Below are positions 25,906 to 50,083 of a DNA stretch of 64,000 nucleotides, in pieces; position 1 is the first letter of the stretch, and the number at the start of each line of letters is the position of its first letter. The stretch is from Marchantia polymorpha subsp. ruderalis. Lineage: Eukaryota > Streptophyta > Marchantiopsida > Marchantiales > Marchantiaceae. A program made the position numbers and the translations under genes. The notes beneath the pieces are model-generated. The model did not search any database. It saw only the letters and a list, made by a program, of their open reading frames with translations, and had not been told where the DNA came from. Where the stretch lies: assembly GCA_037833965.1 (NCBI GenBank), contig AP031352.1, positions 15,666,501 through 15,730,500 of the forward strand, written 5' to 3'.

Positions 25906-27286
25906 TGTTATACCTTAGATCTGAAGAAAATCTACACAAAGCAGTGAAGTATCTCATTTTAGACACTTTGATTTCCTTCATCCCCAATTTGACTTACATC
26001 TTTACTTTATCATGCAAAATGGATAGTGTAAATCTAAAACCTTGTTCAATGAGAGAAGTTTGGAGTTATTGAAGAATCACAATAGCACTTTGAACTTTCT
26101 GCACATAGATGTATGCCATAACTAAGGACAAAGTTCTTAGTTGTTTGATTACTATTTTCTTCAAGTTAACAAATCGAAGTTCATGATGTAAATATTCCGC
26201 ACAAGGTGCGAGAAGATTATACCGCAAGTAGCATAGAGTGCAACAGTTGCATTTGCTGCACTTTGCAAGGTAAATTGTAAGGATAGTGACACATAGATTG
26301 TGGGTAGAAATCTTCATGTTTATGTTTGACTTACTGTTGTTGATTCAATTGGTTTAGGAGAATTCTACAGTTCACTGCTGATGATTTTCCTATCTGAGTT
26401 CTTCATTAAACTGGGAATTAATTAAGCTTCTTAATTGGGAGTATTGTTTGCTTTTGGCACTTTTGCATTAGCCATCTTGTTGTTGTGTGTTGTATGCTTG
26501 GTACTTTTGAAGTTTGATTTCCACCCATTCATGAGGATGAAAGCATTATAGTCTCATTGGCCAAGTGGTGTCTCGCATGAAAGTTTTATGCTCTCACTTG
26601 TATATGCTGCGGAGCTACGGAGCTCTAGATGCAGCAGCCCATCCAGACTTGGATATGGATGTTGTGCAGATCCTGAGGAATGCAGTCTAAGCCCAAGAAA
26701 ACTTGCAGAATGGAAGATCCATACTTACATTCACGATCATAAGCTCTTACGGGAATTTTTTCTTAGGACATTACATAGTAAAATGGTTCATATTTAGATG
26801 TAGGTATAAACCTGCTCTGCTTCAAAATCTGATTCCAGCTTGATGCTGCCTTGTATGATGCAATTAGGATTTTCCTTGGACATTTTATGGAACTGATTTG
26901 GAACTGCTATACTTCTTTGCAGTTGGACCAACTGGAGACCATTTGTCCTGACAAAAGGTGGAATCAAGTTAAGTTGCTCTTCTCCGAAACATTAACTGAA
27001 ATGCTATCATTATGTGAGGAGGTCGTAGCCAAAGTTCTACTGTTTGAGCACAAGCAAGTGCAAGATGTTTTTTGTTTGATTGTTGTTGTTTGTTTGCTTG
27101 TCATCGTAACTGATGTGGTCGAGTATGGCGCAAGATGTGAACATTTGGCACGAAACACAAGAAAGAGTTTTTTTGGAAACAGTTGAACATCTTCAACAGT
27201 GGAGCGTCTTGATTCTAGCCGTGATTGCTCTGCAATCTTGGTACTCCTTCGTCTCTCGAACATGACTTGTGAATTTATTGAACCAT
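25906..27286. other. unassigned region with weak coding character
   Basis: No recognised gene. At 26840-27070 the plus strand has acceptor-like AGs followed by coding-like stretches (LDAALYDAIRIFLG; LDQLETICPDKRWNQVKLLFSETL). They abut the 120-bp tandem repeat and could belong to a decayed gene that I cannot identify. Confidence 0.3.
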
Positions 27287-27646
27287 GACTTGCGGATTTC
27301 AATACATAGCGCTGCGCGTGGATTGCATGTAAAAGAAGAATTGGCTGTTGCTTCGTTGATTGAACAAAGGTCCGATGAATAGCATGTTGTGAAAATACTG
27401 CATCCTGATTTGCGTATTTCAGTGAAAAGCGCTGTGAGTGTATTACTTTTAAAAGTGAAAATGGTTGTTGCTTCGTTGATTGAACAAAGGTCCGATGAAC
27501 AGCATATTGTGAACATACCGCACCCTGATTTGCGGATTTCAGTACATAGCGCTGTGAGTCATTGAGATGTAAAAGTAGAAATGGCTCTTGCTTCGCTGAT
27601 TTAAAAATGGACCGATGAATACCATGTTGTTCGACAACAATCTTTT
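27287..27646 (+). repeat. tandem repeat, three copies of 120 bp
   Basis: Copies begin at 27287, 27407 and 27527, exactly 120 bp apart, and are largely identical. Since 120 is a multiple of three, the same frame persists in each copy and reads a 40-residue unit containing DLRIS..SAV and ASLIEQRSDE. Copy 1 has one stop in this frame, copy 2 has none and copy 3 has two. Confidence 0.9.
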
Positions 27647-29298
27647 CAAGTTTTGAGGGCCGCGGGTCTTCTAATGTTAGGACTTCACGAAGGTGACTTG
27701 GGAGCTATTGTGACTGTATGTCACGACTACGAGATTCCGATCTATCAAGCTTTGATATCCAATGAATTCAACTTGAAACATATGACACTGCTTCATGCTC
27801 AAAAAGTATGTGTTGTGATGGTATATTCCAATTGAATTGGGTATCAGATTTCTACTCCTATCTTTCTATTCTTTGACACTCTTCTTGTGTACATATTATT
27901 CGTGATTGTTCGTTGAACACTCTAATGTATTGTTCCTTAGGTCTTTCTCCGCTTACTAAGTCTCAGACTTGCGCTACTTCATGTTGTACAATCTCAGCTT
28001 AAGCGTCTCTTCTCCTTTCACCATCTCTACAATAGATTCCTTGAAAAGGAATTAACTGCATTTGATAGAACCAAAAAAATTCTGAACGTAAAAGATGGTG
28101 TAACATCAAAGATGGTTTCCTTGAAATTGAACTTCCTGAATCTATAAGTCCCATATTTCCGTCGGAACTATAGACATTTAGATTTCAAATCTGAAACTCA
28201 CTGCACTACTCATAACAATTTTACTTAATAAAAGTCGCGACGAGACATTTTAAGCCGTACAAGCAGAGTCACACACCGGATATATATTTTATTTTTCGCT
28301 CCAATGATAGACGGATGGAATCCCGATAAAAATATACATTGATATAACAGGTTAGTGTTAAACCTATGAAAGTGCGTGCAATCCCTCAGACAACTGCGGA
28401 ATCAGAGGAAAAGATCTTATTGAAGGAATCAAGTTATCTACTATCAAATGGGTCGAAGAAATACTGACGAAGGTTGAAGTCAAACATGGCTACATACATC
28501 TGCTATAGAGGTCTCAATCTATGACTTAAAGACCCATCACTAGCTCAGTCCAACGTACAACCCGTACCAATTGGAGACCGAGCCATTCACCGTGAATACT
28601 CGCAGTTGAAACTTCCATGCGATCACTTCCTCACTATAGCCTGCAACATGTACTTACAAGAACAATTTTTAGAACTTGGAGACGGTGTGCCTTCGGTGGG
28701 TCCCATCGGGTGAAACTACACGTGATGGGTCCAGTACGCTACTTATATTCCGATGGGTTCGCATTAAATAGTTATCTCCTTGCCACGAGTACCACTCAAT
28801 CCAAAGAGGACCCAATGTAACGAATGAGGTGTGTCAAGAAGCAAATAATACAGCAGCACAAGACGCACATCATCTTCAGACCTTCACATTTATTGAAGTT
28901 ACAAAGTTGGCCCACTGCATACATCCATGTGGTGACTAGAGGGCATAAGATACTCAGAAATTTGAACAGCTCTCAAGGCTTGGAACACCTTGAAAACGTG
29001 CATCTTTCTCCTTACTGTTCTAGTTTACAGCTCCTTATATCTGTGAGATTCAAAGCTTTATGTACACGTCAATGCTGACTCGGAAATCTCTGCGTCAACT
29101 GGACCAGAGGTAGTTAGCGTGCTCGGCTAGACCCCCTGTGCCAGACCACGCTTCACCTGATCCGGGAATCGCATATAATCCACAGGTTATCACCAAGTTC
29201 TACATAATCTAGAAATTCTCCCTTTATAGATCTGAAGAGATTAGCGCAAAACTCTGCACATTACCAAAGCATTTGCCTAGAACCCATCTAGTCTTCTC
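27647..29298. other. intergenic, no gene recognised
   Basis: Only short open frames with unfamiliar products. The last few hundred bases probably include the 3' UTR of the minus-strand metallo-beta-lactamase gene. Confidence 0.5.
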
Positions 29299-39840: not shown

Positions 39841-41890
39841 AAATGTGGGATGAAGATATTTGCCGGCATGGGAATTCGACCTGTGGCAACGCAATAATGC
39901 GTCAATCAATCGGGAATCGGGAAGCACAAAGCACAGAGCTGAAGGAGCTGGGCGTTCCCAGTCACCGAACTGCGTCGTCCCAAGGACAGTGCGTGCTCTA
40001 TGGCGCATACCGCATGTGGCAGAGGTGGACGTGCTGGGGCCGGGACGGGCAGGAAAGGGAAAGGACGAGGGGAGCGAGAGAGAGGGCAAAGACCACCGAG
40101 CATCGGGCCAAGCCCGGGACAGTGAGGGACTGATCCGGGCCACAGAGTGATTCTAAAAACTGAGGCGAGAGCAACTTGGCGGAGCGAGTGCGGCCTCGCG
40201 ATCGCAAGGCAGTGAGAGAAAGAGATCAGGTTTCGCGAGACGAGGAGCATTTTCGGCCTGCCAAATCCGTCCTCGTGACGTCTGGGCAAAAAGTAATAAT
40301 CCACCTCGTTCTCGACCCGCTTGGCACCGAACTGATTGTCTTGCTCGAAGAGTTCCTTGGTCCTTCCGTGCGCATGTCCGTGAGAGGAGGGGGCCCATCG
40401 AGACTAGAGCACAGTTGAAGGATCGGGAGTCATCGTAGAGGGCAACGTGAAAGTAGGGCAGAAAATTCTGGGAAGGGAGGAGGGAGGTTAGTCGTTGTTG
40501 CCGTGTTTGCACGTCGCAGCCCGCTAAATTCATGACGGCTATGCCTTGTTGCCAGCGGCCTGTGGTCGGCTGGGCCTTGGCGATCTCTCTCGGCACCCGC
40601 TTTCGCCTTCCTTCTACCGTCATCTCCAGCTTGCCTACGGGAATTGTAATTGAACGCCTCTTATCTTCCTGTGGCATGACCGAGCGGCATTCCCTGCGTT
40701 TACGTGCTTACAGTTGGCTTGTTTGGTTTTTCGGATTTCTGGTCTGTGTAGTGTTTCGAGCCGGCCCTCAATCTGTCCACTCTGGACTCGATCATCCGTT
40801 CCACTCAGCAACTGTCTTCACCAGTAAAACATGGACTCAAGCAAAATTTTATTCCTGAAGTTGTCACTATCCTTGACTTGGGTGCACAGCGGAGTTGTTT
40901 GAAATAAAGAACATTCCGGAACTGTATACTGAGCACCACCCCATCACCGATACGAAACCGTGAAAAGTATCCACGTATCAGATAATTCAGTTCTTAGAGA
41001 CCAACATTCGGCTAGCTTCACGTCTGCCAGGAGCTGGCTGATCAAGTTATTAGAACCTAACTCAGTAATCTGGAAGCCGTCCACCTCCGGACTCATGGGG
41101 TTGTTGAACGGAAGTACATTTGTCGAAATGCTAATCTTTTGACCAAATCATTCAACGCTGAATTGTAAACATCGCACGCTCGAACGTACCAATTTACATC
41201 TCCTTAACACTGCTGTCTCGCAGAGGCAATCTCAACCAGCGGCGTTGTCCGGGCAGTTTGTGAGAAGGAGGCTCTTTCCTAATCTTCATGTGCGTGTATC
41301 CACTACTCACTGTATAGTCAGGTCTTCGTGGGATTTTCATGGACACTTCGATGTTCTCCAGTTGTGTTGTTGATAAAATTTGATACTTTTAACAACATTC
41401 TTTCATTAATCTTGTCAAGGGCTTTTCAGCATTTTCTTTTAACTAGTGTGGAGCAATGAGCAACTTTCAGCAGTGTTGTTGATTAGCCTTCAGTAGTATA
41501 GTTTATTTATGTTTTTATCAACTCCTACATATTTTGGAAATGAGTAGCGAAACAGCTGTTTGCTACTAAGATTCGATCTCAAATCAGATTGATTAAGTTG
41601 ATGGAGACTTCAATTTGGATTTGAAACCACTAATTGTTTTATTCATGAATCAACAGCTCCGAGGAGTGGTGCGCCACGCAAGTGGACAGTTGCGTTCCTC
41701 AACAGTAATTTCTCATTACATTTATCTTTGTATTTGATCTTCATAGATACATATTTTCTTTCAGCTCTAAGCCAGCTGATTGACCTGGATCTAGTAAAAA
41801 AAACAAAAATCATTAAAGTCACGCGAGGCTAATTGACCGGCGAGATTTGAAGAGGTCAGTGTAGTTAATCGTCTCGATGTATCCTGACCT
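39841..41890 (+). promoter_or_regulatory. presumed promoter and 5' leader of the aminopeptidase gene
   Basis: GC-rich from about 39850 to 40720, then of ordinary composition up to the coding region. An open frame at 40532-40645 (38 codons, starting MTAMPCCQRP) ends at a GTAATT donor in phase 0. It could splice to the acceptor TTGCAG just before 41921, also in phase 0, giving an alternative N-terminus for the aminopeptidase. Confidence 0.4.
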
Positions 41891-44800
41891 ATGTTTCGTC
41901 CGATTATCACGTTGTTGCAGGGACGGAGGCATCTTAGTGGGATTGTACGCTGCACCACCGCAAGCCCATCACAACCCGCCTTAAGTGAAGCAGTCACAAT
42001 GAAGGAAGCTCCCAAGGAGATTTTCTTGAAGAACTACAAGGCTCCTGCTTTTCTTTTCGATGAAGTGCGTTCCATGGCCATATCTTGAATGCTTGAATTT
42101 TGTGTTTCTGGAAGCCAGTCGACCTTATAAGTAATCCATATTAGTTTGAGATTTGTTTGGAGACACATCTTGATTTTGTTGGCTAAAATAGTATCTTGTC
42201 GTTGCAGGTGCACCTTACTTTTATACTTGGAGAGCAGACAACAACTGTGCTCTCAACCATCAAAGTCTTACCAAGCTCAAATGGTAAGATATATGGTCTT
42301 TGTTAGAACGTGAACGTCCATGCGTTGGATATTGACAGCAACCTGATTCTGCTTCGTACCCCTTCCGAAATGCTGTAGTCGTTCTCCAAGTTTCCGTTCA
42401 AGCTTTTACCATGCCTCGTTCAACGAAGCACAATCCCATCGACTGCTGGTTTTTGTCTAAGGACTCCTGATGCCCTTATTGTATTCGAGATGTGTGTAAC
42501 ATAAGGATGGTATATTGGGGATGTCACCGTTCTTAGGGCCTGAGCTAGGCTTAACGGTTTATCGAGGCTAAACTTTGCATACGTGGATGACTGTAACAGC
42601 GGCTAAAGCCCCTTTGACGCTGGATGGTGAGGATTTGAAACTCTTGCACATTAAAATTGATGACAGACAGCTTGAGGTATTTTTCCCCTCTTTTCTTGAT
42701 ATGTCTGAGAATGGTTGAACTGCTTATAGTTGAGCCTGATTCAGAGCACTTGATATTAGTCAACCTTTTTTTCTTGGCTTCTGTTCGTTCATTTGTACTC
42801 ATTATTTTGTTGGGTTTCAGATCGGAGAATTTGAGATAGTGAACCGCAAGCTTGTTTTGACAAGTCCGCCATCAACTCCGTTCGTCCTAGAGATATCAAC
42901 AGAAATTCAACCACAAAATAATACATCTCTTGAGGTGAAATAATTCTACATTGAGGTGCAGCCGTGTAGAAATCTCCATAGTCTGTTATATATGAATTGT
43001 GGATGTCTTCACTTGCACCTTTAAAGTTTCAATCTCACGTTTGATTTACTATTTAGATCTAACATTCTTCTCAACAGGGTCTTTATAAATCCACGGGCAT
43101 GTTCTGTACTCAATGCGAAGCTGAAGGTTTCAGGAAAATAACCTACTACCAGGTTCTTATTCCGTGTTTTGCACCCCAAAGAACGACTCTCGGTCTCTAT
43201 AAATACATTCTTCTAGTGAATTTGATTTAAGTAGAGAGTCGGTGTGATAGGTGTATTTTAATTAGGTTGGACGTGGAGATATCGAGAGAAGAAATCGAAA
43301 CACGTTCACTTGCTTTGTGTCGTTGTCGTGCTTCGTAAGTATCTCCTAAGTCAAGCTGTATAATTTATGCAGGATCGGCCCGACGTTATGGCAAAATTCA
43401 CCACAAGGATTGAGGCAAACAAAGAGCTGTATCCTGTGTTGCTGTCGAATGGCAATCTTATTGACCAGGGTGGTCTTGAAGTAAGTGACCTATCGGTTCT
43501 CTCCCTCTATCCTGCTCCTCGATTTTTATGCAAATCACTTCCGTTTCGTGAAGGAGTTACCTTCTTCTCGAAGGAGACCTGAGTTGGCTAACTATCGATG
43601 ATATAATCATCAAGTAGTTTCGTCGATTCTTTATTTCTCAGTAAGGACCAAACTATACACGTCCACTAAACACCAAGCCTTAGCTAATCCTCTTGGAGTG
43701 ATCGGCTTGAATCGGGTGGCAGGATGGCAGGCACTATGCTGTCTGGGAGGATCCATTTAAGAAGCCTTCCTACCTCTTCGCTCTTGTTGCTGGTCAGTTG
43801 GTATCACGAGATGATACATTCACGACAATGTCAGGTCGTGAGGTCGTCCTCCGAATCTATACTCCTGCAGGTGATATTTCCAAGACAGCACATGCCATGA
43901 CATCTTTGCAGGCGGCGATGAAGTGGGATGAGGATGTAAGTTCCCTATATGTTTCGGAGTATATCTTCTACTATAAAGTTCCAGCTTTATTTTACAGCTC
44001 AATTCAATGACGTGTAAATCATTATCTTTTGCTCAGCCTCTTACTTTGTGTAACCTAGCTGTGTATCTCGATTTGTTTGGTCTGATATTTTGATTGGCTC
44101 GGCAGGTGTATGGGTTGGAATACGATTTGGACCTGTTCAACATCGTGGCAGTTCCCGACTTTAACATGTACTTCTTCTCTTCTTACTAGCACATGTTCCC
44201 CAGGCAGAGAGGTTCTTGTCATGAGACTTGGTTTCGCCTCTGTACCTGATTTCTCGACACAAGTTTTGTATCAGACGTAATCCTCTAGTTGCAGATTACT
44301 GTAATCCTGTCTTTTCTAAACGTTGATTTTTGTTTTTTAAGTTTGAAATCAGGGTGCGGGTAGGATGAGGTCCTGATTGTTGCATTGTCCTGAATTTGCT
44401 TGCATTGTCCTTTGAACAGGGGAGCCATGGAGAACAAGAGCTTAAATGTAAAGTTATTTTTTGTCTTCATTGTTTTCTGTAGCTTCATTGTTGACGGCTA
44501 TTGTAAATGTGTGATTAGTTCCCGTTTTTTTGTAACGCCCTATTGTTACGGAGTATATTTTGGTCGGCCAGGTCTTTCAAGTAGGTGAAGCTGCAAGTCT
44601 GACATAATTATGCGATTCAGATTTTCAACTCAAAGCTTGTTCTGGCTTCACCCGAGACTGCAACAGATTCTGATTATGCATCTATCGAAGGTGTTATTGG
44701 ACATGAGGTTTGTCAACTTTATTTCCCAATTGGACTATATGTCCGTTGCACTCCTCTCACTCATCTTGTCGTTTTCTTTATGACCTCGCTATTGTCCATC

Positions 44801-47800
44801 GATTTATCCTGACATTCCTTATTCTCTCTTGTAATCGCAGTATTTTCACAATTGGACGGGCAACAGGTGAGCAACAGTTATCATATAATTACCAACAAAA
44901 TCACATCACAGTCCAGTCGCGAGATTGTTGGTTTTCTCAGTGTAGTATTCATCGGTGCACGATGAAGTAGTGTGTGTTTTACAGAAAAAAGATCGTTTAG
45001 AGTATCGGTTGGGATGGAAGTAGACACATGTATCCAACATCAGCATTGGTTTTTGTTTGAACTATCAATCCTGCTTGCATGGATGAGCCATTTCCAAAGT
45101 GTTTTCTGAGTTTGCAAGTCGAACCGCGCAGGGTGACCTGTCGAGATTGGTTTCAGCTGAGTCTCAAGGAAGGTCTGACCGTATTCAGAGATCAGGTAAT
45201 ATTCTTGAAGTACGGTGCGATGAGAAGTTTTGGATAGATTTCCGACAGGTAGAGATGTTAACGTTGTCTTCTGCTAGGTTGTAAGAAGAACTTTATCTAT
45301 GATTCTGGCCACTGCTTTCCAGGAATTCTCATCGGACATGGGTAGTCGAGCAGTGAAGAGGATTGCAGATGTCATAAGATTGCGGATTTCGCAGTTCCCC
45401 CAGGTGAATAAATGTTCCAGATGTCATGTTCCCGCTTGCGAAAGTATGAAATCATATCTTTCGATTTCCTGTGTCGCAAGTTTTTCTACCGTTTCAAAGA
45501 TGTATGGAAAATGTTTTGTAGGACGCTGGGCCAATGTCTCATCCAGTTCGTCCGCATTCGTACATCAAGGTGAGCTTCTCTCGATAATTGTGAATGCATT
45601 TCACTATGTCCTTTTTCCTGGTTCAACAGTGGCTGTTTCGCAAGTTGGGAACATTGTCAAATCTAAATCTTTTCGGTAAACTGTATTGAAGAGAGTCCAA
45701 GAACGTTAGCTTCTCATGAGTTGAACTGAATCCACTTCTTTTTACTGTTGTGTCCAAGAGCTCTTAGCCTCACCTGGCCTTACATTTCGTTTTTGTTTTT
45801 TTATCTGTTTTGCAAGATGGACAATTTCTACACTGGTAAGAATCTGCAATGACTCATCTCAACCGTCACTTTCACGACGTCGTTGCACGCTAGGGACTTG
45901 GATATTCCATATTTCGGCTTGTACTACTGATGAGAGCTCTGTGATTGCAACGCAGGATAAGCTTTCTCTTCGTCTGCTGTACTTTGCTTTCTGCCAAGAT
46001 TGGATTTCTCTTTCAATTCTGACTACAAATTGTCGTTTGGCGTCCCCCTTATATCGTTCTATCGATCCTGCTTGTTTCAGTCACGGTAAGCATGTCATCC
46101 TTCTGAACGTAATTTTGCTTGACCTCGTTGAATTGCTTATTCTTGTCTTGCATTTTTGTTTGGCTCCAATACTTACTTCTTCGTTTTTATGTGGCGTGAT
46201 CCTTTTTCGTTGCTGGCTCGGCAATTTCCTTCAGGTTTATGAAAAGGTACTGAGTACTTGGTTCCGTTCCCGGCAGACTTTCTTTTTTCAGTTTGATAAC
46301 TGTAGCCTCTGCATGGGTTGGACGTACCTGCCTAGGCTTGAAAACTACGACACGCTCGTTAAATACTAATCATATAGACAAATAAGTAATGTTCTTGTGC
46401 ATTCAAAGAGTCCAAAGAAAATAAGTTATGAAACAAAACCGGATGCGTTTCTTTATAAGTTCGAATAAGTGTCTTGAACTTCTTTTTTATAAATCTTATT
46501 GCAGGGTGCAGAGGTTGTACGAATGTATCAGACATTATTAGGGAAACAAGGCTTCAGGAAGGTGAGTGGTGAGGTTGTTTGATTTTGAAACGTAAGGAAG
46601 TCTTGGTTCTTGTGTTACTCCATTTGAACAATGTGAGCCGATGCAACCAACCGACTGTGCAGTAGTGTGCTGCCTTGCGCGCCACTTAGTTCGTTCCCAC
46701 ATGTTTGTTAGGCAGCTTTGTGGCCAACGAAATCCTTCTGGAAAGAAGTTCATTCAAGAAGTTTGTCAATTATACACCAGCTTTGAGGATAAGTTGGTTT
46801 TTTATACCTCGCCCACAGAATGTCAGAAAATAAAAGAAATGAAAAGAAGCCTGGAGCTTACTGGGATCAGTGCTGGTCAGTTTTTAAAACTCACATCAAA
46901 TCTCTTTATATGTGGTATTTAGGGGATGGACCTATATTTCAGCAGACATGACGGACAAGCCGTTACTTGCGAGGATTTTTTATCTGCCATGTTTGACGCC
47001 AACAATGTGAAGATTCCAACTTTCCCCTTATGGTGGGTTGCTACGACTTGTTTACAGTTCTAATCTTCATAAGACAGTATGAACTGTCGTAAGTTCGGCA
47101 CCTTTTTCCTAGCTTCACGGACACATCATACCGTCATCTGCCTACGTGACAAGCGGATCATTTGTGGTCATGTTTATTCAAAACACAATGCTGTTGCTTG
47201 GCGCTTGAGAACCTGCCTAGGTCGATCGTTCAAGCTTTATCTAGTGTTGCAGTGGCCAGCTGTTTCTTTAAGTCCACCTTATCGCTTGGTTTATTTATCA
47301 GGTACTCGCAAGCAGGAACGCCTACTCTCACAGTCACTTCATCATATGATGCTGAAAACCACACTTTCACTCTCAAGTGCAGGTAACGTTTGTGGATGTG
47401 GTCAGTCGGCGCTTGCTACGATCTTTGTGGTTTTGGGACACCCGCATGCTATTTGGGTCTTTAAGTAAGTCATTTCTATTCTAATTGAATAAGAATGCCG
47501 ATGGGGATCTACAGGCAGATAGTGCCTCCTACAGCTGGGCAGCCAGATAAGAAGCCAATGCTGATTCCACTAGCAGTTGGCCTTCTCAACTCGAGTGGAC
47601 AAGATTTACCCTTGTCACTCGTGTATGACGGCGAATCTTCGATTGATCTAAAAGTTGACGGGAACCCTGTCAAAACAGCTGTACTGCGAATTGAAAAGGT
47701 GATGATGGTGCATTGTGCTTTCATCTTGTTATAGCCTGGGAAATACTATATGTTAGTGTACAAATGGGCTTCCACATTACGGGTTCATTCTTTCGTGTCT

Positions 47801-50083
47801 GATCGAGTCAAATTGTTCCGCTCTGTTGTCCGGTCCAGTCATTCACTAAAATGTATGCTTCTTTCTTGAAGGCTGAGCATGAATTTACCTTCAAAGACGT
47901 CACCGAGAAACCAGTGCCATCACTGTTGCGCAACTTCAGTGCGCCTGTGAGACTAAACACGGATGTCACGGATGATGATCTCTTGTTCTTGCTAGCGCAC
48001 GACTCGGATGAGTTTAATAGGTATTTTTTCTTCATGTACATTATACTGTCCTTAGAGAGAACGTGCAAGTTGAAGAAATCTTTCACGTTTAAAGGGTAGA
48101 AACAACTCATCTTAGTTGACTTGACGCTGGCTATTCAGGTGGGAAGCAGGTCAAACACTTGGTCGAAAAATTTTACTGGACTTGATCTCACGAGTGCAGA
48201 GAGGAGAGGAGCTTACTTTGAATGAAGCTTATGTCGAAGGACTTCGATCTGTACTTACAGATCAATCTCTGGACAAGGTGAGAACGTTTGTCGGCGACTG
48301 GAATTAAAACGTTGTTAATGATACAGCTGAACATGTCGTGACACTGCTCCTCCATGTTGGTCGCTGCAGGACTTCATAACCAAAGCCATCACTCTTCCTG
48401 GTGAAAGCGAGCTTATTGACCTCATGAAGGTTGCTGACCCGGTAGCTATTCACACTGCTCGTCGGTTCGTCGTGAGGCAGTTGGCACAAAGCCTTCGAAA
48501 AGAGCTTAAGCAAGCGGTACGGTTTATGTCATTATTTTACAACACACTCAATGTTCCTAGGTAGATGATAGTTGGGACTTCATTATTCTCCCATTTCCTA
48601 GTTATTTCCAACTGCTCTGCCCACTCAGGTCGGTAGGATTAAAGTTTACTTATGTCTGTCAATGAACAGGTGGAGGCGAACAGATCGTCGGAGGCCTATG
48701 ACCCTTCCCACCCGCACCGGGCCCGAAGATCATTAAAAAATATGGCTTTAGGTAATGAACATCTTTGTGGTGGTAGCGTTGTGTTTCTGTGTGTCTGGTC
48801 TTTGTATTGAAAGAGATGGTCGTTTGAAAACACTGTGCAACAGCTTACACCAAACTGCGCTTACTTTGGTGTAAGCGCAGTTTATCTTGCTTCTTTGGAC
48901 GAACCAGAGACAACTGAGCTAGCCGTACAGGAGTATAAGGCTGCAACCAATATGACGGACCAGTTTGCAGCTCTGGCTGCTATAGCCCAGAACTCCGGCA
49001 GTGCTCGTACTCAAGCCCTCTCGGACTTTTACGACCAATGGAAGCATGAAACCTTGGTACGTAATTTGCTGCTAGGATTTTCCAGGCAAAAAAATTCTTT
49101 CTTTCACCTTAGTACAGGGCAAAACTCTAGAGGAAACTTTATGTATATTTCGAAGCTTTCCAATATGAGGATCAGAAGTTCAAAGTAATAGAAGTCAAAG
49201 CGGTTGTTGTCTAAAGTTACGTAAATATCCGTCCTGACAATTGCCTGTTCGTTAATTATTCTTGAATGTATCCAGGTGGTGAACAAGTGGCTGGCGTTAC
49301 AAGCGGCTTCTGATATTCCCGGCAATGTCAGAAACGTGCGAGATCTGCTGGATCATCCTGCATTTGACATCTGCAACCCCAATAAGGTGCTCATTTTTGG
49401 ACAAAAGCATTCAAAATTGACTCGTCTGAGCGCATAATGATGGCACCATTATGAGATTATCACAATGTTATACAACTCCTTCACGTTATTCAGCTCTCAA
49501 GTGTATGGTGCAGGTTTATTCCTTGATCGGAGGTTTCTTTGCATCTGTCGTAAACTTTCATGCCAAAGATGGTTCTGGATACGAACTTTTAGGAGATGTT
49601 GTCATCCAGCTTGACAAGTTGAACCCTCAGGTACCGTTTTCTACAAAACTATGTCATTTTTCTTCATGGGTTCTGAAACTTACCTCTCTGATGAGCTAGT
49701 TAAGTACAAAGTAGGTCGGTCCTTCGTATGGACTGTTGTGAACTGAAACTCCGATCATATTAGTATCCGAGGAGTGACGTACCTTGTGACACTGACATGT
49801 GAAACTTTAATGTCTGCCCTTCCAGGTTGCTTCTAGAATGGTTTCAGCTTTCTCGAGGTGGCGAAGATTTGATGAAGAGAGGCAGGCACTGGCTAAGGTG
49901 CGTGTGTGCGTATGTGATAGCTTCTTTGCCGATAAGTCGGGCTGTGCTTGTTTTATTGTTGGTCTAGTTTCGGGACTAATCGTCATGTTTGTGAAAATGT
50001 AGGAACAATTGGAGAGAATCACCAAGTTGGAGGGTCTATCAGACAACGTGTTCGAAATTGCGTCAAAAAGTTTAGCCTCTTAA
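41891..50083 (+). CDS. PepN-type M1 aminopeptidase
   Basis: Thirty coding exons join in phase to 924 residues: 41891-42064, 42208-42283, 42600-42676, 42821-42934, 43078-43152, 43373-43480, 43723-43935, 44106-44167, 44420-44447, 44621-44707, 44841-44866, 45132-45195, 45323-45403, 45522-45569, 45817-45835, 46081-46085, 46235-46246, 46505-46561, 46923-47032, 47302-47382, 47515-47698, 47872-48020, 48139-48277, 48370-48516, 48670-48751, 48881-49056, 49276-49386, 49514-49630, 49826-49897, 50003-50083. The product matches the plant zinc aminopeptidase At1g63770 and E. coli PepN, which remove N-terminal residues from peptides. The substrate-anchoring GAMEN is at 301-305. HEYFH (337-341) and E360 form the HExxH-x18-E zinc site, and Y421 aligns with E. 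coli Tyr381. All catalytic residues are present. The N-terminus is basic and looks like a plastid or mitochondrial targeting peptide. Start choice is uncertain, because an acceptor-like site at 41920 allows an upstream first exon. Very short exons are discussed under findings. Confidence 0.95.
46081..46085 (+). other. 5-nt microexon of the aminopeptidase gene
   Basis: The previous exon ends after one base of a codon, and the next begins in phase 0. The family needs Thr-Val-Thr-Val-Tyr here. The five bases TCACG, between TTTCAG and GTAAGC, supply exactly the missing Val-Thr and restore phase. Confidence 0.85.
46235..46246 (+). other. 12-nt microexon encoding the catalytic tyrosine
   Basis: Twelve bases between CCTTCAG and GTACTG encode Val-Tyr-Glu-Lys. 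The tyrosine, residue 421, lies 80 residues after the second zinc histidine, the same spacing as His301 to Tyr381 in E. coli PepN. Confidence 0.9.
48843..48880 (+). repeat. two overlapping, mutually exclusive hairpins at a 3' splice site
   Basis: Positions 48843-48854 pair perfectly with 48865-48876 (12 bp). Positions 48855-48864 pair perfectly with 48871-48880 (10 bp). The two stems share bases and cannot form together. The acceptor AG of aminopeptidase coding exon 26 is at 48879-48880, inside the second stem. Confidence 0.85.

Follow-up and report, generated by a model that had tools for sequence, protein, structure and literature searches.

A known plant microexon pair in the catalytic core of a PepN-type aminopeptidase gene of Marchantia polymorpha

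In a stretch of 64,000 nucleotides from Marchantia polymorpha subsp. ruderalis (termed here 'the window', that is, the whole stretch of DNA that was analysed), the coding region of a predicted M1 aminopeptidase passes through two consecutive exons of only 5 and 12 nucleotides, the second of which carries the tyrosine expected to stabilize the transition state. This arrangement raises the question of whether exons of that size are genuine and, if they are, whether they provide a splicing-level switch of enzyme activity, as the original prediction for this locus proposed, or are instead a conserved and routinely spliced feature of the gene. The microexon structure is real and was correctly described by that prediction, and it was already known rather than new. 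The account that best accommodates the evidence, to which a probability of roughly 0.94 is assigned, is that the gene is a PepN-type M1 orthologue of the At1g63770 type, bearing a published pair of microexons (clusters 7 and 28) that is constitutively included and that originated through intron gain.

The gene, its product and its catalytic residues

Direct reading of the forward strand produced a gene model of 30 coding exons, in which all 29 introns display GT-AG borders, and translation of that model yielded a predicted product of 921 amino acids with one terminal stop and an otherwise uninterrupted frame (Table 1). The numbering of exons 15 to 17 presumes that translation begins at an ATG within exon 1, at 41891, and the 5' end of the gene is provisional. 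By eye, an acceptor-like ttgttgcag ending at 41920 falls within model exon 1, and a possible short coding exon is located at approximately 41657-41704; the interval 41657-41920 suggests that another start, with a different (transit-like) N-terminal sequence, might be used.

PepN-type M1 aminopeptidases are distinguished by a GAMEN motif, an HExxH motif with a downstream glutamate, and a catalytic tyrosine. Each of these elements was found in the 921-residue product, together with four Pfam domains (Peptidase_M1_N, Peptidase_M1, DUF3458 and DUF3458_C). A search of the PDB (E up to 0.001) matched 114 distinct sequences, with solved aminopeptidases present among the best 60 of those 114, and the top match, to aminopeptidase N (E = 7.2e-269), spans residues 40-921. 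Pairwise alignment with E. coli K-12 PepN (427 identities across 867 aligned positions) placed the GAMEN motif of PepN (261-265) at residues 298-302, and His297, Glu298, His301 and Glu320 at residues 334, 335, 338 and 357, with identity at every one of these positions; PepN Tyr381 aligned with Tyr418, which is encoded wholly inside the 12-nt exon 17, just as the original prediction had indicated. Three of the 16 PepN positions that were compared differ in Marchantia (Tyr275 to Leu, Arg293 to Gly, and Asn373 to Asp). In the M1 family, loss of the catalytic tyrosine would be expected to abolish activity. A modelling passage of one published study is in keeping with that expectation and, in its authors' model, the hydroxyl of the PepN-type Tyr381 forms the oxyanion hole together with zinc (PMC12190285).

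The coding sequence is divided unevenly. Eleven exons fall inside the Peptidase_M1 domain (44106-46561) and have a mean length of 44 nt, whereas the remaining 19 average 120 nt; none of the six exons of 51 nt or less lies outside that domain. Given this fine subdivision of the entire catalytic core, the presence of the tyrosine on a 12-nt exon needs no special explanation.

Table 1. Features of the aminopeptidase gene, in window coordinates (position 1 is the first nucleotide of the window)
Feature	Position	Strand	Basis
PepN-type M1 aminopeptidase coding region, 921 aa	41891..50083	+	gene model, Pfam domains, PDB matches; 5' end provisional
Exon 9, 28 nt, bears GAMEN (G298-N302)	44420..44447	+	gene model, PepN alignment
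Exons 10 (44621-44707) and 11 (44841-44866, 26 nt), zinc motif HE/YFH divided between both	44621..44866	+	
Exon 14, 48 nt, first of five exons around the microexon pair	45522..45569	+	gene model
Exon 15, 19 nt, MDNFYT and base 1 of a Val codon	45817..45835	+	gene model
Exon 16, 5-nt microexon TCACG, entered in phase 1, finishes Val and encodes Thr	46081..46085	+	
Exon 17, 12-nt microexon GTTTATGAAAAG, phase 0, Val-Tyr-Glu-Lys including Tyr418	46235..46246	+	
Exon 18, 57 nt, last of five exons around the microexon pair	46505..46561	+	gene model

The microexon pair and its published counterparts

The gene model agrees with the original prediction on the lengths, positions and entry phases (0, 1 and 0) of exons 15, 16 and 17, all of which have AG/GT borders, and on the assignment of Val-Thr, across a codon boundary, to the 5-nt exon and of Val-Tyr-Glu-Lys to the 12-nt exon. 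Exons this small might nonetheless be artefactual, representing chance matches, residues that are in fact supplied by another exon, or the remains of a pseudogene. To see how often such patterns arise by chance, the 669-nt interval that separates exon 15 from exon 18 was shuffled 5000 times with its dinucleotides preserved. The pattern of the 5-nt exon (AG-TNACN-GT) arose in 113 of these shuffles (2.3%), a result that favors an artefact and because of which the 5-nt exon, considered by itself, is weakly supported. The pattern of the 12-nt exon (AG, the VYEK codons, GT) arose in none of the 5000, nor did the two patterns in their proper order; a chance origin of the 12-nt exon is excluded, and the 5-nt exon is fixed through order, frame and homology. 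When the 16-base pattern AGGTNTAYGARAARGT was sought across both strands of the 241-Mb genome, seven matches were found, versus 13 for a reversed control, and these genome-wide counts correspond to approximately 1e-5 to 2e-5 expected matches in 669 nt.

Nor was another source of the residues located. The three forward frames across 45570-46922 were searched for seven motifs (VYEK, TVTVY, YEKG, NFYT, FYTV, VTVY and LTVY), and only NFYT (at 45823) and VYEK (at 46235) were present, both at the proposed exons; a larger hidden exon supplying Val-Thr-Val-Tyr-Glu-Lys, an alternative that the original prediction had itself raised, was found in none of those frames. Searches for a second or processed gene copy returned only the gene itself, in that all four genome matches to the spliced exons 13-19 fell on its own exons and all five DUF3458_C matches also lay inside it (in each case among the best-scoring candidates). 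These results, together with the intact 921-residue frame, render an artefactual origin of the tiny exons scarcely credible.

The pair has direct counterparts in print. In passages of the study by Yu et al. in 2022, microexon cluster 7 is defined as 5 nt in length with phase 1, and cluster 28 as 12 nt in length with phase 0; the two are described as adjoining in Peptidase M1 genes (for example, AT1G63770.5), and the pair in rice (Os08t0562700) as having been validated by RT-PCR sequencing, while the introns flanking cluster 7 have been lost from a sunflower gene, so that this cluster is not universal (PMC8831610). Passages of a 2024 study in Nature Genetics further report that the pair was verified by RNA-seq in the Zygnema gene Zci_04270, where annotation had overlooked it and was missing the Peptidase M1 motif, and describe a layout of five exons over a 108-nt tag in Arabidopsis, land plants and Zygnema; M. 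polymorpha is named there among the 16 genomes of the study (PMC11096116). A dedicated plant microexon resource, MEPDB, is described as containing 20,224 microexons from 132 plant genomes (PMC12409088), and the product of At1g63770, MPA1, is presented in part of another report as one of two probe-labelled M1 proteases in Arabidopsis (PMC9322406).

Exons 16 and 17 correspond to these descriptions in size, phase and adjacency. The former is internal and coding, has 5 nt and begins in phase 1; the latter, likewise an internal coding exon, adjoins it and has 12 nt and phase 0, as the definitions given in passages of PMC8831610 for clusters 7 and 28 specify. The 108-nt tag likewise extends over five exons, comprising the 19, 5 and 12 nt of exons 15 to 17 and portions of the exons on either side (48 and 57 nt), with the match to Arabidopsis being a match to the layout as described in print. 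The Marchantia pair is a copy of clusters 7 and 28, whether this genome adds to those already analysed in print or is one of them. Judged from the shared microexon layout, and from a similarity in sequence that we take to exist between the two genes, this gene is probably orthologous to At1g63770 (MPA1). The choice of At1g63770 as a comparison in the original prediction was well founded, matching the published exon layout of that gene, while any novelty of the 5 + 12 nt pair is negated by its prior publication (passages of PMC8831610 and PMC11096116).

Inclusion, skipping and retention

The consequences of altered splicing were computed from the gene model. If only exon 17 is lost, the frame is preserved (917 aa), and if only exon 16 is lost, it shifts (with a stop after 416 aa), and to that extent the original prediction was accurate; it made no mention of the joint skipping of exons 15 and 16 (913 aa) or of exons 15, 16 and 17 (909 aa), both of which are also in frame, and for that reason an in-frame skip is not peculiar to exon 17. 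Frame shifts also follow from the skipping of exon 15 (stop after 425 aa) and of exons 16 and 17 together (442 aa), and retention of intron 14, 15, 16 or 17 introduces a stop after 413, 419, 422 or 460 aa, respectively, versus the full 921.

Splice-site strength was scored using small and noisy donor and acceptor matrices, the former being a 9-mer matrix trained on 25 introns (with introns 14-17 left out). In the 669-nt interval that separates exon 15 from exon 18, the highest scores among the 43 GTs went to the predicted donors at 46247, 45836 and 46086, in that order; across the 29 introns of the gene, the exon-17 donor was the fourth strongest and that of the 5-nt exon 16 was the ninth weakest. 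The microexon acceptors were weak, being the third weakest of 29 for exon 16 and the seventh weakest for exon 17, and among the 24 AGs in the interval those that precede 46505, 46235 and 46081 ranked second, sixth and tenth. A weak exon-17 donor had been considered as a sign of regulated skipping, based on a six-base count of 3/6, but that argument was dropped because of the rank assigned to this donor by the 9-mer matrix.

The top score among the 24 AGs (8.67 on the small acceptor matrix) belonged to the AG just before 45956, which the model leaves unused and which may be an acceptor decoy within intron 15. The weakness of the microexon acceptors and the presence of this stronger, unused AG therefore leave room for some mis-splicing.

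A separate observation concerns intron 25, at whose 3' splice site two overlapping and mutually exclusive perfect inverted repeats occupy 48843-48883. One has 13-nt arms (48852-48864 and 48871-48883, 6 nt apart), with the AG of the intron (48879-48880) inside its 3' arm, and the other has 12-nt arms (48843-48854 and 48865-48876, 10 nt apart). The predicted RNA fold of 48840-48900 has an energy of -22.2 kcal/mol (z = -5.25), with none of 200 shuffles as good, and when 48800-48900 was searched against the genome, no other place was reported. If formed, the hairpin with 13-nt arms would bury the intron 25 acceptor, and that with 12-nt arms would free it.

Judging from the sequence, constitutive inclusion of both microexons is the most likely state in Marchantia. 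Plant coding microexons are mostly included, with intron retention being more common than skipping, although they do undergo alternative splicing as well, according to passages of the same published survey (PMC8831610); the strong exon-17 donor agrees with that tendency, whereas the weak microexon acceptors count against constitutive inclusion and would also fit a detention of the upstream introns. Under constitutive inclusion, an ancestral catalytic core would have been cut into short exons by successive intron gains (the intron-gain account being taken from print), with two of the resulting pieces left tiny. Production of the enzyme would then need both microexons to be included, and a failure of splicing at either, chiefly through intron retention, would truncate the frame and generate a non-productive transcript.

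The activity switch envisaged in the original prediction would instead require that the 12-nt exon, and no other, be skipped under regulation, giving a near-full-length enzyme without its transition-state tyrosine. Such a process would be consistent with the preserved frame, with the loss of four residues that include Tyr418, the counterpart of the residue that lines the oxyanion hole in the published model (a passage of PMC12190285), and with the weak exon-17 acceptor, and a factor that affects microexon skipping, GRP20, is described for Arabidopsis in part of a further report, in the main text of which neither 'peptidase' nor AT1G63770 occurs (PMC10808074). It is opposed by the strength of the exon-17 donor, by the additional in-frame skips noted above, and by the predominance of inclusion, and of retention over skipping, among plant coding microexons in passages of PMC8831610. 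Furthermore, no report of an isoform that skips exon 17 was found, as judged by title, in the literature collection that was searched for plant aminopeptidase microexons and At1g63770 splicing. A putative splicing-level activity switch is not supported and appears highly improbable, and an equally slight chance attaches to a minor, regulated isoform lacking the 12 nt that would produce a catalytically dead M1 aminopeptidase, with a dominant-negative or peptide-sequestering role, in one tissue (for example, sporogenous cells).

A different form of control, in which slow removal of introns 15-17 would keep transcripts in the nucleus and thereby set the amount of enzyme, is a possibility that we regard as doubtful. 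Rate-limiting or detained introns of this type would generate no inactive isoform, and would be compatible with constitutive inclusion. They would fit both the weakness of the two microexon acceptors and the truncation of all four computed retention products, as well as the raised retention and post-transcriptional splicing described near microexons, above all for upstream introns, in passages of PMC8831610; the published property, however, is general to microexons rather than specific to the Marchantia gene.

Annotation, other M1 loci and known systems

When the Peptidase_M1 profile was run through all six frames of the genome (E up to 0.01), it produced six matches at two loci, at 1.32 Mb on C4 and 9.47 Mb on C3, and no match in the microexon-bearing gene, which that profile probably misses because its exons are too short to score. 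At the two other loci the Y-x-KG motif falls within an open stretch, of 85 aa in one case and 299 aa in the other, such that neither needs a microexon at that position, and the idea that microexons are a general trait of M1 genes in this genome was rejected. For annotation, a predictor that missed the 5-nt exon would introduce a frame shift and damage the catalytic domain, and the failure of the six-frame profile search to register the Marchantia gene is akin to the missed motif described for the Zygnema annotation (passages of PMC11096116). The pair also represents a marker of streptophyte intron gain. Were the skipping of exon 17 to be regulated, it would constitute a four-residue on/off switch for an enzyme, but nothing that was observed points in that direction.

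Elsewhere in the window, an open frame of 246 aa on the reverse strand (26964-27704) displays imperfect repeats of approximately 40 aa by eye, with units resembling RYVLKSANQGAV...HRTFVQSTKQQPF, and has no Pfam match. Of the 23 stop-to-stop open frames of at least 130 aa in the window, eight were compared with Pfam and none of the eight matched a family (E up to 0.01), and a tRNA scan of the window with bacterial settings returned no genes.

In animals, the neuronal microexons of the nSR100/SRRM4 programme are regulated and often skipped. They resemble the Marchantia exons in their very short length and in that one of the pair is of in-frame length; plant coding microexons, in contrast, are mostly included, according to passages of PMC8831610. 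E. coli PepN belongs to the same protein family as the Marchantia enzyme and has the same residues at PepN positions 261-265, 297, 298, 301, 320 and 381, but its gene lacks introns and the identity between the two proteins amounts to 427 of 867 aligned residues. Inclusion of the pair has been verified at the RNA level for Zygnema Zci_04270, whereas that in Marchantia is deduced from the genomic sequence; the Zygnema and land-plant layout, as described in passages of PMC11096116, is otherwise like that of Marchantia in dividing the 108-nt tag among five exons and keeping the two microexons apart. The closest correspondence is to clusters 7 and 28 (AT1G63770.5 and Os08t0562700): when compared by their published description in passages of PMC8831610, no difference was found, and the Marchantia pair shares with them its protein family, its sizes of 5 and 12 nt, its phases of 1 and 0, its adjacency and its order.
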